64,000 nt of DNA, taken from Cognatundibacterium curvum (GTDB taxonomy: Bacteria; Pseudomonadota; Gammaproteobacteria; Burkholderiales; Burkholderiaceae_D). Position numbers and translations under genes: made by a program. Of the stretch, positions 9,129 to 16,235 are shown one piece after another. How positions within the stretch are numbered: position 1 is the first letter of the stretch; every line of letters begins with the position of its first letter. The notes beneath the pieces are model-generated. The model worked only from the letters and a program-made list of their open reading frames with translations, did no database searches and was not told the DNA's origin. The stretch spans positions 186,001 to 250,000 of the forward strand of contig NZ_JACOGD010000007.1 in NCBI RefSeq assembly GCF_014284235.1. Reading direction: 5' to 3'.

Positions 9129-9165
9129 AAAAAACCCGCAAACTCCAAAGAATTTGCGGGTTTTT
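9129..9165. terminator. Rho-independent terminator after tRNA-Leu(TAA)
   Basis: Stem CCCGCAAA at 9135-9142 pairs with TTTGCGGG at 9153-9160 and has A-runs on the left and T-runs on the right, so it can work in both directions. On the minus strand it ends the tRNA-Leu transcript. Confidence 0.88.
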
Positions 9166-9186
9166 GCACTTACTGAGATGTCGATA

Positions 9187-9279
9187 TGGTGCCCGAGGCC
9201 GGAATCGAACCGGCACGCCCCGATTAAGGAAAGCGGCGGATTTTAAGTCCGATGTGTCTACCTATTTCACCACTCGGGC
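9187..9279 (-). tRNA. tRNA-Leu (anticodon TAA)
   Basis: The minus strand reads GCCCGAGTGGTGAAATAGGT at its 5' end, with the D-loop GGTAGACAC, an anticodon arm GGACTTAAAATCC (anticodon TAA), a long variable arm typical of class II tRNAs, a T-arm with GGTTCGATTCC and an encoded CCA end. It is the last of the tRNA group below pgsA and has its own terminators on both sides. Confidence 0.96.
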
Positions 9280-9316
9280 CCATCACTACAACATGCAGCC
9301 GAAACTGCTTGCTCTG

Positions 9317-9341
9317 AAAAAAAAGCGCTTAACAGCGCTTT
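9317..9341 (-). terminator. Terminator between tRNA-Cys and tRNA-Leu
   Basis: AAGCGC (9323-9328) pairs with GCGCTT (9335-9340) around a 6-base loop; the minus strand then runs into eight T residues. It follows the tRNA-Cys gene. Confidence 0.8.
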
Positions 9342-9349
9342 CTTTGTAC

Positions 9350-9423
9350 TGGAGGCGGGGGTCGGGATCGAACCGGCGTCTACGGCTTTGCAGGCCGCTG
9401 CATAACCACTTTGCTACCCCGCC
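9350..9423 (-). tRNA. tRNA-Cys (anticodon GCA)
   Basis: The 74-base gene on the minus strand begins GGCGGGGTAGCAAAGTGGTT, carries the anticodon arm GGCCTGCAAAGCC (anticodon GCA) and T-arm GGTTCGATCCC, and ends in an encoded TCCA. Confidence 0.96.
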
Positions 9424-9474
9424 TTTGAGATACCTCACAGCTTATGCTGCGAAATACATCACTACTGCTCTGAT

Positions 9475-9497
9475 AAAAACGGGGAACGTATTCCCCG
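9475..9497 (-). terminator. Terminator after the tRNA-Gly array
   Basis: A perfect 7-bp stem CGGGGAA/TTCCCCG (9480-9486 with 9491-9497) with a 4-base loop is followed on the minus strand by five T residues. It lies just after the last tRNA-Gly copy, so tRNA-Cys may need its own promoter or depend on read-through. Confidence 0.82.
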
Positions 9498-9505
9498 ATT
9501 TAATC

Positions 9506-9581
9506 TGGAGCGGGAAAAGAGTCTCGAACTCTCGACCTCAACCTTGGCAAGGTTGCGCTCTACCAACTGAGCTATTCCCGC
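9506..9581 (-). tRNA. tRNA-Gly (anticodon GCC), copy 4 in transcription order
   Basis: The 76-base gene starts GCGGGAATAGCTCAGTTGGT on the minus strand, with anticodon arm CCTTGCCAAGG (GCC), T-arm GAGTTCGAGACTC and encoded TCCA. It is the promoter-distal member of four identical copies. Confidence 0.97.
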
Positions 9582-9609
9582 ATTAACTGTTGCCTGCTGT
9601 GTGGGAAAG

Positions 9610-9685
9610 TGGAGCGGGAAAAGAGTCTCGAACTCTCGACCTCAACCTTGGCAAGGTTGCGCTCTACCAACTGAGCTATTCCCGC
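9610..9685 (-). tRNA. tRNA-Gly (anticodon GCC), copy 3
   Basis: Sequence identical to the other three tRNA-Gly copies; 28 bp separate it from the next copy downstream. The spacer differs from the other spacers. Confidence 0.97.
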
Positions 9686-9715
9686 TTTGACCATCACAAC
9701 ATTTACTACGAAACC

Positions 9716-9791
9716 TGGAGCGGGAAAAGAGTCTCGAACTCTCGACCTCAACCTTGGCAAGGTTGCGCTCTACCAACTGAGCTATTCCCGC
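9716..9791 (-). tRNA. tRNA-Gly (anticodon GCC), copy 2
   Basis: Identical in sequence to the other copies, with anticodon GCC and encoded CCA. Spacers to its neighbours are 30 bp (downstream) and 22 bp (upstream). Confidence 0.97.
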
Positions 9792-9813
9792 ATTACATTT
9801 CATCGAAGATACT

Positions 9814-9889
9814 TGGAGCGGGAAAAGAGTCTCGAACTCTCGACCTCAACCTTGGCAAGGTTGCGCTCTACCAACTGAGCTATTCCCGC
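9814..9889 (-). tRNA. tRNA-Gly (anticodon GCC), copy 1
   Basis: First of the four identical tRNA-Gly genes in transcription order. It begins 18 bp after the -10 hexamer of the promoter at 9907-9934. Confidence 0.97.
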
Positions 9890-9906
9890 ATCGACGAAAG
9901 ACCAAA

Positions 9907-9934
9907 ATTATATAGCACTCCGAAATTATGTCAA
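9907..9934 (-). promoter_or_regulatory. Near-consensus sigma-70 promoter of the tRNA-Gly array
   Basis: On the minus strand TTGACA (9929-9934) and TATAAT (9907-9912), both perfect consensus hexamers, are separated by 16 bp. The site sits between the pgsA stop codon and the first tRNA-Gly gene, so the array can be made strongly and independently of pgsA. Confidence 0.9.
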
Positions 9935-9939
9935 GCGGG

Positions 9940-10533
9940 CTAACTCACTTTGTCCTGGCGCTCTGTGCTTTCCTTGATCATAGGCCAGGCTTTTTTCAGG
10001 TAATAGCACATCGACCAGACGGTCAGCACGGCGGCCACCAGCAATAACCAGGAACCGATCAGCACGGAATCTATCACGCCAAACAGCATGTCGTAATACA
10101 GCAGCATAGGAATGGCGATCATCTGCGCCGTGGTTTTAATTTTACCCAGCGAGCTGACTGCTACCGATTTCGAGGCACCGATCAGCGCCATCCATTCACG
10201 CAATGCAGAGATGGTGATCTCGCGCCCTATGATCACAAACGCGATCACGGCATTCACCCTGTCCAGCTGCACCAGCACCAGCAAAGCACCAGCTACCATC
10301 AGCTTGTCGGCCACCGGATCGAGAAAGGCGCCAAACGAGGAAGTCTGATTCCAGCGCCGCGCGAGGAAGCCGTCGAACCAGTCCGTCACCGCTGCCACGA
10401 TAAACACGATGGTCGAGGCCAGACCTTTATAGAAGGGACTCAGCCACGCATCCGGCAAATAAAAAACACCGACCACCAGAGGAATCAGTGCGACGCGCAA
10501 CCAGGTCAGCAGTATCGGAAAATTTAAGGGCAT
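9940..10533 (-). CDS. pgsA: CDP-diacylglycerol-glycerol-3-phosphate 3-phosphatidyltransferase
   Basis: This inner-membrane enzyme makes phosphatidylglycerol phosphate from CDP-diacylglycerol and glycerol 3-phosphate, the committed step to phosphatidylglycerol and cardiolipin. The 197-residue protein has several membrane helices and the complete CDP-alcohol phosphotransferase motif DGx2ARx8Gx3Dx3D, visible from DWFDGFLARRWNQ to FGAFLDPVADKLM. It follows uvrC at 118 bp. A possible promoter inside the 3' end of uvrC is listed separately. The tRNA-Gly array follows directly, a common arrangement in related bacteria. Confidence 0.96.
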   Translation of the reverse strand: MPLNFPILLTWLRVALIPLVVGVFYLPDAWLSPFYKGLASTIVFIVAAVTDWFDGFLARRWNQTSSFGAFLDPVADKLMVAGALLVLVQLDRVNAVIAFVIIGREITISALREWMALIGASKSVAVSSLGKIKTTAQMIAIPMLLYYDMLFGVIDSVLIGSWLLLVAAVLTVWSMCYYLKKAWPMIKESTERQDKVS

Positions 10534-12590: not shown

Positions 12591-12986
12591 TCAACACTCT
12601 GCTTCCACCACGACAAAAGCCAGCGCATAGTCTTTTTCATCACTGAGCGACACATGTGCTTTCAGGCGCTGCGTCTGCATCCAGCTGGCCAGCGTGTCGG
12701 AATAATGCAGCACTGGCTTACCCTGCGCATCATTCAGCGTCTGCAGATTTTTCAAGGTCATCGGCAAACGTACACCAGTACCTATCGCTTTACCAAAGGC
12801 TTCTTTGGCCGCAAAACGGGTCGCTAAATAATGCATGGCACGCAGTTCCGATTGGGCTGCGCGTTGCTGGTAGATTTGCCATTCCTGCGCACCCAGAATT
12901 TTCTCGGCAAATCTGGGACCAGAACGCTGCAAGGCAAGCTGCATGCGGTCTACCCGGGTGATGTCGTTGCCTATGCCGTAAATCAT
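12591..12986 (-). CDS. acpS: Holo-[acyl-carrier-protein] synthase
   Basis: AcpS transfers 4'-phosphopantetheine from coenzyme A to the serine of acyl carrier protein. The 131-residue protein starts [16 protein letters not shown], where Asp8 is the usual Mg ligand. The second signature RFAAKEAFGKAIGTG holds the Glu and Lys of the active site. The start overlaps the stop of the PdxJ-like gene by 4 bp (ATGA), so the two are translationally coupled, as in the conserved recO-pdxJ-acpS cluster. Confidence 0.95.
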   Translation of the reverse strand: MIYGIGNDITRVDRMQLALQRSGPRFAEKILGAQEWQIYQQRAAQSELRAMHYLATRFAAKEAFGKAIGTGVRLPMTLKNLQTLNDAQGKPVLHYSDTLASWMQTQRLKAHVSLSDEKDYALAFVVVEAEC

Positions 12987-13633
12987 GGCTGCGGACCATA
13001 CAGGCGTATCAGCTCCGCTTTAGCGGCGGCCACCGCACTGCCCCAGCCTGACAGCAAGGCGGTCGCCAGTAAGCCCTGCCCTAACTCCAGCACGCGACAG
13101 CAAGGATAACTGCGTACCGCAGCCATTTGCTGAACTGAACGCAGCGGCAAACGCAGACTGATGCCAGCTTGCGTCGCAGCGCTACACAGCGCAGTGACAT
13201 CGGCGACGGCCTGCCAGCCTTCTTGCGGCAATTCCAGCAACACACTGCGCGCACCCTGCGCATGCACGGCCTGCAAAGCAGCGCTATCCGGGCTGGCCAC
13301 TGCCACCCACGGCGCGTCTGCAACCGACTCTGAGGCAATCTGTCCTGCGATTAAGCCCTGCTGCCATAAGCTCTGTGCCAAGGTATCCTGTGCAGCGGCA
13401 TACACAAACACCGGCAATGGGCATGTGCGCAGTAAGCTCTGCACCCCTTCAGCTGTCAGCGTGAGGCTGGCCACAGCCAGATCCAGGCTGAACTGATCGG
13501 CGCCCGCGTGCACCGCATCGCGCATCAGTTGCTCGCACACAGACTGCGGGTTTGCATCATTCAGCAAGGCGAGCAAGACCGGATCAAGGTCGATACACAG
13601 ATCCGGCAAATGCAAAGGAGGATGTATCATCAT
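12983..13633 (-). CDS. PdxJ-family protein lacking catalytic residues, at the pdxJ locus
   Basis: The gene sits where pyridoxine 5'-phosphate synthase (pdxJ) lies in most proteobacteria, between recO and acpS, overlapping each by 4 bp. The 216-residue product aligns by eye with PdxJ (about 243) along its length. [11 protein letters not shown] matches the N-terminal [21 protein letters not shown] matches QAGADGITVHL, and [22 protein letters not shown] matches HELNIGHAIIGRAVMTGL and what follows. The catalytic positions are lost: the His in VHLRED is Asp51, the Glu of NLEMA is absent, the GHGL histidine region reads LRLPLRS, and NIGH is LGQ (184-186). The frame is intact from end to end, so this looks like a maintained pseudoenzyme. 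It should not be taken as proof of vitamin B6 synthesis. Confidence 0.75.
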
Positions 13634-14463
13634 AAATTCTGCAAATCGATCAAAAGCTGGCGGGTACTGAGTACCGCGCCGTGTAAATGATGCGAGAGTA
13701 AAAAGCGCATCAGCATCTTACTTTGAAACTGAGTTTCCGGCAGGCTGTAATCACCATCCGCCATCGCCAGCAGGCAAGCCCCGCTCAATACCGGGAAATG
13801 ATCACCGGGCCGCGCCGGGCGCGTGCCAGCTTGTGGATCGAGCACATAATGCAGCTCAGGCTGCACGGGCGCACGCTGTTCGGTACACAGATGTATATCG
13901 CCCAGCAGGCCAGACTGACGTAGCAAAACCAGCTCAAACTGGCGCAGCACCACGGGTGCCGATTCGCCATGTGCTAACTGATTAATGGTTGCCACGTACT
14001 GATCAAACAAGGCAGGATGCGGCTCGTCTTTGAGCAGAAACTTAATGATCAGTTCATTCAGATAAAAACCGCATACAAGCGCCGATTTTTCTAAGGGCAG
14101 CATGCCGCCTACCCAATCAGCCGAGGTCAGGGTTTTTAACTCGGTCTTGCCCATCCAGGATAAGTTCAGCGGCTGGAAAGTCTGCAATACGCTGCGCAAC
14201 TGCGAGTGTGGCCGTTTGGCGCCTTTTGCGACCAGCGCAATGCGGCCGAAGTCGCGCGTCAGCACATCAACGATCAGACTGGTTTCTTTGTAGGGGCGTG
14301 CATGCAGCACAAAGCCAGGTTGCTGCAAAATTTTGCGCTCACGCTGTGCGCTGGCAGAGATGGCAGAGGAACTGCGCTTTTTGACTGGCGCAGAAGTGCG
14401 CAGAGGATCTTGCAGGTAGTCTGCAAGATCCTCTGCCACTGCGTCCGTCGCGGGATTCATCAC
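13630..14463 (-). CDS. recO: DNA repair protein RecO with N-terminal extension
   Basis: RecO helps load RecA on single-stranded DNA with RecR in the RecFOR gap-repair pathway. The protein is 277 residues. The family start, usually near the first residue, appears here at about residue 50 ([23 protein letters not shown]). It is preceded by a polar Ser/Lys-rich extension that looks disordered. The OB-fold segment continues [24 protein letters not shown], and the C-terminal helical part has [12 protein letters not shown]. Four zinc-type cysteines are not visible. It is coupled downstream to the PdxJ-like gene (ATGA) and lies 15 bp after era. A start at a later codon is possible, but no internal ATG with a ribosome site stands out. 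Confidence 0.93.
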
Positions 14464-14478
14464 CTCAAAGACAGAAAT

Positions 14479-15381
14479 TTACTCGTAGCCGTAAGCACGC
14501 AAACCGGCTTCATTGTCGGCCCAGCCTGATTTGACTTTGACCCAAATTTCCAGATATACCGGACCACCAAACAGCTTTTCCATGTCGATACGGGACTGGG
14601 TGGAGATTTCTTTCAGGCGCGCACCTTTGTTACCGATGACCATGGATTTATGGCCATCACGATCGACCAGGATCGCGACAAACACGCGGCGCAGATTACC
14701 TTCCTGCTCAAATTTTTCAACCAGCACGGTACTGGTATAAGGCAGCTCATCACCGACGAAACGGAATAATTTTTCGCGTACGATTTCAGCTGCGAGAAAT
14801 TTTTCGCTACGGTCGGTGATATCGTCTTCACCGAACATCGGTGGCTGTTCCGGCAGATATTTACGGATTTCACCCTCCAGATTTTCCAGCTGGAAGCGCA
14901 GTGTCGCAGATACCGGCACAATCGCAGTGAACGGGAACGCAGCCGCCACCTTCTGCGCGAACGGCATCATGACGGCTTTATCTTTGATACGGTCAGACTT
15001 GTTAATCACCAGGATGCAAGGCACGTTCTTAGGCAGCAGCTCGATCACTTGCTGATCAGCCGGGCCAAACGTGCCCGCTTCGATGATGTACAAAATCACG
15101 TCAGCGGCAGTTAAGGTGGTGGTAACGGTGCGGTTCAGCGTGCGGTTCAGCGCATTCGAATGGCGGGTCTGAAAACCCGGCGTATCGATGTAGACAAACT
15201 GGGTCTGATCTTTGGTTTGTATGCCAGTGATACGGTGACGGGTAGTCTGCGCTTTACGCGAAGTGATACTGACCTTGGCGCCGATCAGCGCGTTCATTAA
15301 GGTCGATTTACCGACATTAGGACGACCGACAATAGCAATATACCCACAACGAAATTCTGGGTTGTCTGTGATTTCATTCAT
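14479..15381 (-). CDS. era: GTPase Era
   Basis: Era is an essential GTPase that binds the 3' end of 16S rRNA and helps 30S subunit maturation. The 300-residue protein has [14 protein letters not shown] (P-loop, residue 17 on), the switch region [24 protein letters not shown] (its DTPG is G3) and NKSD (G4). The C-terminal KH domain includes [18 protein letters not shown] and [21 protein letters not shown]. It lies 8 bp after rnc and 15 bp before recO, in the classical lepB-rnc-era-recO order. Confidence 0.97.
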
Positions 15382-15389
15382 GGGAAGAC

Positions 15390-16235
15390 TCAGGCTGATT
15401 TAGGATGGGATTTCGCGGCAGGCGCTTTTTCTGTTGCGCCTGGTTCTTGCTGCGATACCGGTTTTTCTGACGGCGCTGGATTATCCTGCTGCGGCGTCGC
15501 GATACCGGCTAATTTTAATTGTGCGCTTCTGGGCTTGGATTTGCGTGCAGCGGGGGATTTTGCCAGCGCAGCAATTGCTGTTTCCAGTGCCCGCTTTGCT
15601 GCGGCCTGCTCGCCGGCACGGCGACTGCCACCGGTACCAAATACCTGAATATCGAGTTTAGGCACCAGGCATTCGATCTCGAATTCCTGATTATGTGCCG
15701 CGCCATGAGTCGCAACCACATTGTACTGTGGCAGTGCGATTTTCTTACTTTGCAAAAATTCCTGCAGCAAGGTTTTGGCGTCTTTACCCAAGGTAGTCGG
15801 GTCGACGGTGGCCATAATCGGTTGATACAAGGCCTCGATCACGCGCTTGGCAGTATCGAATCCTGCATCGAGGAAAATCGCGCCGAATAAGGCTTCCAGC
15901 GTATCGGCCAGGATAGACGGACGACGGAAGCCGCCGGACTTGAGCTCACCTTCACCCAGGCGCAGGAATTGCGATAATTCTATGCTTTGGGCGATTTCAA
16001 ACAAGGATTGCTGCTTGACCAGATTGGCGCGGACACGCGATAAATCGCCTTCATCGATATCTGCAAAACTATCAAACAACAGCGACGCCACCACACAGTT
16101 GAGCACCGAATCCCCAAGGAATTCGAGGCGCTCATTGTGCGTGACGCTATGACTACGATGCGTTAATGCCTGCTGCAATAAAGCGGGGTTATTAAACTGG
16201 TGCCCCAGTCTCTTTTGCAATAGTTGAAGATTCAT
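15390..16235 (-). CDS. rnc: Ribonuclease III with a long basic C-terminal tail
   Basis: RNase III cleaves double-stranded RNA, including the rRNA precursor. The 281-residue protein has the signature [13 protein letters not shown] at about residue 34 with the catalytic acidic residues. [15 protein letters not shown] carries the second acidic set. A double-stranded RNA-binding domain covers about 155-225. Beyond it lies a tail of about 55 residues rich in Pro, Ala, Lys and Gln, absent from the roughly 226-residue enterobacterial enzyme but common in betaproteobacteria. The gene is 12 bp from the DUF4845 gene and 8 bp from era. Confidence 0.96.

Follow-up and report, generated by a model that had tools for sequence, protein, structure and literature searches.

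A pdxJ descendant lacking most active-site residues is under purifying selection between recO and acpS

Our analysis of the window, the 64,000-nucleotide stretch of DNA examined here, identified in the gene at 12983..13633 (minus strand) a diverged descendant of the native operon pdxJ. Its 216-aa product, here termed psiPdxJ, has lost most of the PdxJ active-site residues, and its protein sequence is currently under purifying selection. We give about even credence to the reading that psiPdxJ is a pseudoenzyme that retains its fold and serves a non-catalytic purpose, and that would have been left behind when another sequence type of PdxJ, type B, took over the enzymatic task. New here are the second, type-B PdxJ, the pairing of type B with copies like psiPdxJ (psi copies) in one clade of Undibacterium, and parallel cases in two genera.

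The psiPdxJ frame is intact, starts with ATG and occupies the pdxJ slot of the era-recO-pdxJ-acpS operon (for this gene order, see the passage on E. coli in PMC8708148). On the same strand it has recO upstream (13630..14463; Pfam RecO_N and RecO_C, NCBIfam TIGR00613) and acpS downstream (12591..12986; Pfam and NCBIfam TIGR00516), and the operon context further upstream includes era (14479..15381) and rnc (15390..16235), both on the minus strand and named from sequence and gene order. The recO stop and the psiPdxJ ATG overlap by 4 bp, as do the psiPdxJ stop and the acpS ATG. The original prediction had described a conserved locus, confirmed here by the Pfam and NCBIfam assignments of both neighbors, and an intact frame overlapping each of them, confirmed by the ORF coordinates. 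It had also taken the overlaps as a sign of selection. In each of the 40 extracted loci from Undibacterium, whether native or psi, an ATG lies at the recO-overlap point (the junction ATG of G039, where recO is cut, was set by hand), and in 10/10 Undibacterium psi loci the frame opens 4 bp inside recO. Since this overlap is common to native and psi loci and ancestral, it is in itself no evidence of selection; selection itself is evident from the dN/dS values below. At the other end, the frames of the ten psi loci finish -4 to +4 nt from the acpS start, where acpS starts were assigned by eye from the MIYG/VIYG beginning of the protein.

When the window protein was searched directly, by HMM and against the PDB, the matches were too weak to decide its origin, and bridging relatives were needed. 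No Pfam family matched it at E<=10, PdxJ (PF03740) included, and neither did the NCBIfam PdxJ model; phmmer against the PDB reported PdxJ 3gk0 at E=0.031, an HMM built from 44 natives matched at E=0.0065 (best of 2000 shuffles, 2.6), and profile comparison with 26 natives gave a probability of 9%. An HMM built from 12 other psi copies, with the window clade left out, matched the window protein at E=7.9e-13 (best of 2000 shuffles, 0.088). The profile of the window clade (3 sequences) matched that of six intermediate psi copies with 95% probability and E=2.7e-8 over 97 C-terminal columns, and the profile of these six matched the natives with 100% probability and E=2e-51. Undibacterium is the genus of the window, the same gene being present in U. 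crateris with 94% identity and in U. rugosum with 91%. Six other Undibacterium slot proteins match PdxJ at 145.8, 124.5, 103.5, 92.3, 73.3 and 64 bits. In a Pfam scan of nine other psi proteins, 6/9 exceeded the PF03740 cut-off of 24.5, G004 and G017 scored 12.0 and 13.5, and the slot protein of G040 had no PF03740 match; together with its two closest relatives, the window protein is thus below the cut-off. Membership in the PdxJ family, as originally proposed, is thus upheld by synteny, the bridging profiles and the leave-out HMM, the direct match being weak. The proposed end-to-end alignment stood only in part: psiPdxJ, though truly related to PdxJ, has 36 aa fewer than a native of 252 aa, the gap falls near native 54-90, and only the 97 C-terminal columns match firmly. 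The AF2 model of the window protein is poor (pLDDT 48, pTM 0.38; the input was three near-identical sequences), and the Foldseek ranking obtained with it is therefore only supporting evidence: 12/12 matches at E<0.001 are PdxJ chains, with TM by query of 0.44-0.54 and rmsd of 6.5-8.1. Active PdxJ is an octamer. psiPdxJ shares with PdxJ (PF03740) the locus, the neighbor order, framework residues and the C-terminal segment, and its predicted strand/helix alternation agrees; it differs in lacking most catalytic and phosphate-binding residues, in its length and in not significantly matching the family model.

Active-site residues are given in what we take to be the E. coli PdxJ numbering (H12, H45, R47, H52, E72, T102, H193, G215, H216 etc.). 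In the alignment, psiPdxJ has P for H12, D51 for H45 (codon 13481..13483, minus strand), A for R47, L for T102, L for H193 and Q186 for H216 (codon 13076..13078, minus strand; NIGH has become LELGQ), and the segment of PdxJ with H52 and E72 is a gap. At the PdxJ-enzyme residues His45, Glu72, His193 and Gly215-His216 it therefore carries D, a gap, L and G-Q. Two site positions are kept, D11 (here D17) and G215 (here G185), so the claim that every catalytic position had changed holds for most of them, H45, E72, H193 and H216 among them, but not for these two.

Residue retention was compared between 44 natives (29 from Undibacterium and 15 from genomes of other genera) and 15 psi copies in nine lineages; the native alignments exclude G024 (partial), G027 (unclear recO junction) and G020 (native locus not fetched). 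Near-invariance among the 44 natives was found in 124 alignment columns. H12, H45, R47, H52, T102 and H216 are kept in 0/9 psi lineages, and other site residues are partly kept: R20 in 1/9, N9, D11, E153 and H193 in 2/9, E72 in 3/9, G194 in 4/9 and G215 in 6/9. As for the framework, A45, D46, L99 and G232 are found in 9/9 lineages, A40, A43, G44, G192, A210, A236 and A242 in 8/9, and G154, W233 and K241 in 7/9 (positions from G232 on in native numbering). In psiPdxJ the AGAD framework motif (residues 43-46, D46 being the residue present in all nine lineages) is encoded at 13496..13507, and the C-terminal segment retained by profile match and conservation (residues 183-210, with the native positions G232, W233, A236, K241 and A242) at 13004..13087, both on the minus strand. 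Mean retention is 1.57 of 9 lineages for active-site columns vs 3.04 for all others (p=0.049), a modest contrast because many other columns drift too. Charged residues make up 23-26% of two natives and 12-19% of three psi copies. Our best guess is that the psi copies preserve the framework of the barrel (AGAD, GW..A....KA and conserved glycines), and not the pocket.

The one PdxJ of the window genome above the family cut-off is a type-B protein of 248 aa, encoded on another contig (E=3.3e-77), and PdxA was also found in this genome. A search for a second intact pdxJ, suggested along with the original prediction, therefore succeeded, at another locus and with intact catalytic residues. Type-B proteins, recognized by an NxNK motif, have intact catalytic positions in 17/17 aligned sequences save for D11 to N, H12 to K and G194 to D (the 17 exclude type B of G040, which was read by eye). 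Type B likely carries out pyridoxine phosphate synthesis, and we infer that its takeover of this synthesis freed the native copy from catalysis. Although psiPdxJ belongs by descent to the same Pfam family, type B differs from it in sequence type, locus and its intact catalytic residues, most of which psiPdxJ lacks; position and bridging profiles indicate that psiPdxJ derives from the A-type of the operon slot and not from type B.

The type-B pdxJ of the window genome is flanked by putative genes for the 3-methylcrotonyl-CoA carboxylase alpha subunit and HMG-CoA lyase, both labeled by eye. Type-B pdxJ follows a putative 3-methylcrotonyl-CoA carboxylase gene at the Undibacterium loci L069, L070, L087, L097 and L082, and is directly followed by a putative HMG-CoA lyase gene in G000, G033, G037 and G040, not in G014. 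Neither the carboxylase nor the lyase pattern was found in 1.5-kb flanks of type-B genes at seven g3, g4 and g23 loci. These differing surroundings in other genera suggest several acquisitions.

Among 43 genomes of the genus, 25 have the native copy only, 7 have native and type B, 10 have psi and type B, and one, G033 (89% complete), has type B, its recO locus not having been found. Leaving G033 aside, a psi copy is present in 10/17 type-B genomes with a readable locus and in 0/25 genomes without type B, where the B gene may be missed in some cases, completeness being under 90% for six of them. In the genus tree, which excludes G020 and G033, the ten psi genomes form one clade (support 100), nested in a clade, also with support 100, that includes six native genomes with type B and G023 (native, no B). 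Being a single clade, they are not independent events. Across this clade the similarity and length of the psi copies drop stepwise, with 216 aa in the window and 171 aa in G040 and the frame unbroken, and all 15 psi copies found, in whichever genus, are open frames. The 171-aa ORF in the recO-acpS slot of G040 (L096) has no significant Pfam match and is counted as psi by position only; it may be a psi copy that has shrunk further, or else a new ORF.

Pairwise codon-model dN/dS of the psi genes was 0.16, 0.19 and 0.21 in the window clade, 0.31 for G008/G012 and 0.35 for G002/G016 (p<1e-4 vs 1 throughout), in line with the earlier view that the gene is not simply decaying. The neighbors recO, acpS, era, rnc and uvrC and the type-B gene gave 0 to 0.17 in the same comparison, a range that leaves out the acpS value of 0.25 for G004/G017, which has an upstream start overlapping psi. 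When the five psi pairs were trimmed by 12 N-terminal and 35 C-terminal codons, dN/dS was 0.21-0.31. In genus g3 the psi values were 0.08-0.18, with dS saturated in 2/3 pairs. About 18 new stops were expected under neutrality in three psi tip pairs, and 0 were observed. Native pairs without type B gave 0.03-0.045 in the four pairs with dS of 0.2-0.9, some of which have genomes in common; of the other four, three have dS>2 (0.002, 0.018, 0.035) and one shows little divergence (0.23). Natives that coexist with type B, with the active site intact, gave 0.07-0.11 in 15 pairs of six genomes. Constraint relaxes stepwise from native to native with type B to psi, short of whole-gene neutrality. The native pdxJ genes with apparently weaker constraint beside type B are those at L043, L050, L051, L055, L057 and L058.

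Constraint is unevenly spread along the gene: residues 1-75 hardly vary within the window clade, and residues 76-150 there are not distinguishable from neutral (0.41-1.35). The active natives rank the regions in the same way, so this ranking is inherited, and a new N-terminal function, considered on account of the conserved residues 1-75, was rejected. With four psi pairs pooled, dN/dS was 0.36 at polar vs 0.27 at hydrophobic positions; in the window clade alone it was 0.39-0.45 vs 0.12-0.16, and in pooled recO 0.13 vs 0.07.

A survey of 371 genomes of the family revealed, outside the genus, a best match of type-B strength together with a weaker one in at least three g3 and at least two g4 genomes. 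The weak copies of g3 and g4 follow recO, are open, span 225-262 aa and lack H45, R47, H52, T102 and H216, with E72 persisting in g4 and H193 in g3. In the family tree g3 (support 100), g4 (100) and the Undibacterium psi clade (97) form separate branches, with weak deeper nodes, for which three independent conversions of native to psi would be the simplest reading. Two matches were also listed for g23 (G126 and G127 were checked), G217 and G274, which are outside the psi count. Genera g5 and g19, psi candidates by their scores, were rejected, as the single PdxJ there adjoins recO. Five family genomes without a PdxJ match also have no RecO match among the matches listed, and are therefore uninformative on deletion.

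The wider order was surveyed in 399 genomes, from which 30 with a single lower-scoring PdxJ were chosen from the matches listed. In 17/30 a PdxJ with the type-B NK motif has recO in the fetched flank (L157, L162, L164-L168, L170-L172, L174, L176-L178, L180, L182, L184); in the rest, three PdxJ of other or unread type lie beside recO, L173 has acpS only, and for nine neither neighbor was found. The type of PdxJ at the locus thus varies within the order. RecO loci were also inspected in 30 genomes, some of them among the 30 above. There, recO directly abuts acpS in 15/30 (f20, 8/8; f37, 6/6; f12, 1/3), a PdxJ-like ORF after recO is absent in the two remaining genomes of f12, in nine of f5 and in G496, and such an ORF is present in G381, G744 and G615. 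The type-B motif was seen in 7 of these 30 genomes and the remainder were typed by score; the PdxJ of f37 has no recognized type motif. In g44, a genus of family f5, G636, G693 and G728 have an empty slot after recO and G381 and G744 a filled one, which rules out that a displaced native is always kept as psi; in none of these five was acpS found beside recO. The recO-acpS slot can therefore be empty; in f20, f37 and f12 pdxJ may never have stood there.

How might a gene stripped of its active site be maintained? In the pseudoenzyme reading, type B would take over pyridoxine phosphate synthesis, the native operon copy, freed from catalysis, would lose the pocket and keep the framework, and the folded, non-catalytic TIM-barrel product would keep a role that PdxJ already had beside RecO or AcpS. 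We guess at a scaffold or a regulatory partner, and the role and the partner alike are guesses. psiPdxJ lacks the conserved catalytic motifs while its sequence is maintained by selection, and the pairing of psi with type B recurs in at least two other genera. Several observations count against this reading: the window protein alone has no PdxJ model match and a poor structure model; E72 (3/9), H193 (2/9) and G215 (6/9) persist, and the contrast with other columns reaches only p=0.049; the polar positions of the window clade are freer, as selection for mere folding would give; its middle third is not distinguishable from neutral, and natives rank the regions alike; charged residues are lost, as drift would do; and the g3 psi dN/dS of 0.08-0.18 overlaps that of natives with type B. 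A broader version, that PdxJ between recO and acpS always had a second, non-catalytic function to which the native was stripped in three lineages, seems to us doubtful.

The alternative to be taken most seriously, possible though below even credence, is a translational relay without a function of its own, in which an open frame lets ribosomes pass from recO on to acpS, and misfolding or toxic variants are purged. Obligatory translation would by itself conserve the fold and leave the active site to drift, and the kept framework and lost pocket conform to this, as do the ten psi loci that start 4 bp inside recO and end within 4 nt of the acpS start, the shrinkage to 216 and 171 aa in an unbroken frame, and the polar positions of the window clade, about three times freer than the hydrophobic ones. 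Shrinkage and charged-residue loss fit the pseudoenzyme and relay readings both. Yet the recO junction is ancestral, recO abutting acpS in 15/30 genomes of other families implies that an intervening gene is not needed in general, and in the four pooled psi pairs polar positions are constrained nearly like hydrophobic ones (0.36 vs 0.27). A pure coupling ORF would show dN/dS near 1; the whole-gene values are 0.16-0.35 (p<1e-4), and only the middle third of the window clade is no different from 1. Coupling of translation as the sole task, which the original prediction had allowed for, is thus weakened by the constraint on sense codons and by the abutting genes elsewhere, and what survives of it is the relay with a foldable product. 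That the gene is redundant and in slow decay, with leftover constraint and a frame due to be lost, is improbable: its dN/dS does exceed that of every neighbor, from 1.5-fold for acpS (one pair) to more than 6-fold for era (all five pairs), again without the G004/G017 value for acpS, and similarity and length do fall stepwise across the clade, but the compared pairs split after the catalytic loss and still have dN/dS well below 1, none of the roughly 18 stops expected was seen, and 15/15 copies are open. TIM barrels often change activity, and the window clade has D15 and D51 where natives have N and H, as if another catalytic centre had replaced that of PdxJ; the residues at the old active-site positions vary from one of the nine lineages to another and show no shared new set, which makes a new enzyme on the same barrel very improbable. 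The thought that position and similarity agree by chance, without PdxJ kinship, could draw on the missing Pfam match and the 9% probability against natives, and is hardly credible: in our view it is already refuted by the bridging profiles, and the leave-out HMM (E=7.9e-13), the shared operon slot and the uniformly PdxJ Foldseek matches, though from a poor model, oppose it too.

PMC10211241 names scaffolding, allosteric regulation, signal integration and competitive inhibition as non-enzymatic roles of pseudoenzymes. psiPdxJ resembles the class as described there in that a catalytic motif is lost and the protein maintained, and differs in that the dead copy occupies the original locus and the live one is the addition. 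A study of a PdxJ pseudoenzyme or of Undibacterium pdxJ was not found in the open-access literature, which is no proof of novelty. The review PMC10582724 describes as 'enigmatic' what the lasting synteny between era and metabolic genes, including pdxJ and acpS, means mechanistically. The series from active enzyme through active enzyme with relaxed constraint to a dead but selected copy makes this question testable: should a gene outlast its chemistry, then its place in the operon or its folded product would matter in its own right. It also offers a bacterial pseudoenzyme for which a single genus displays the parent type, the intermediates and the displacing copy. A second function of PdxJ, if true, would reveal the reason that this ancient operon retains metabolic genes. 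Elsewhere in the window, at 9187-9889 on the minus strand, lie six tRNA genes (Leu-TAA, Cys-GCA and four copies of Gly-GCC), and this cluster explains the repeated, probably spurious plus-strand ORFs at 9164-9943.
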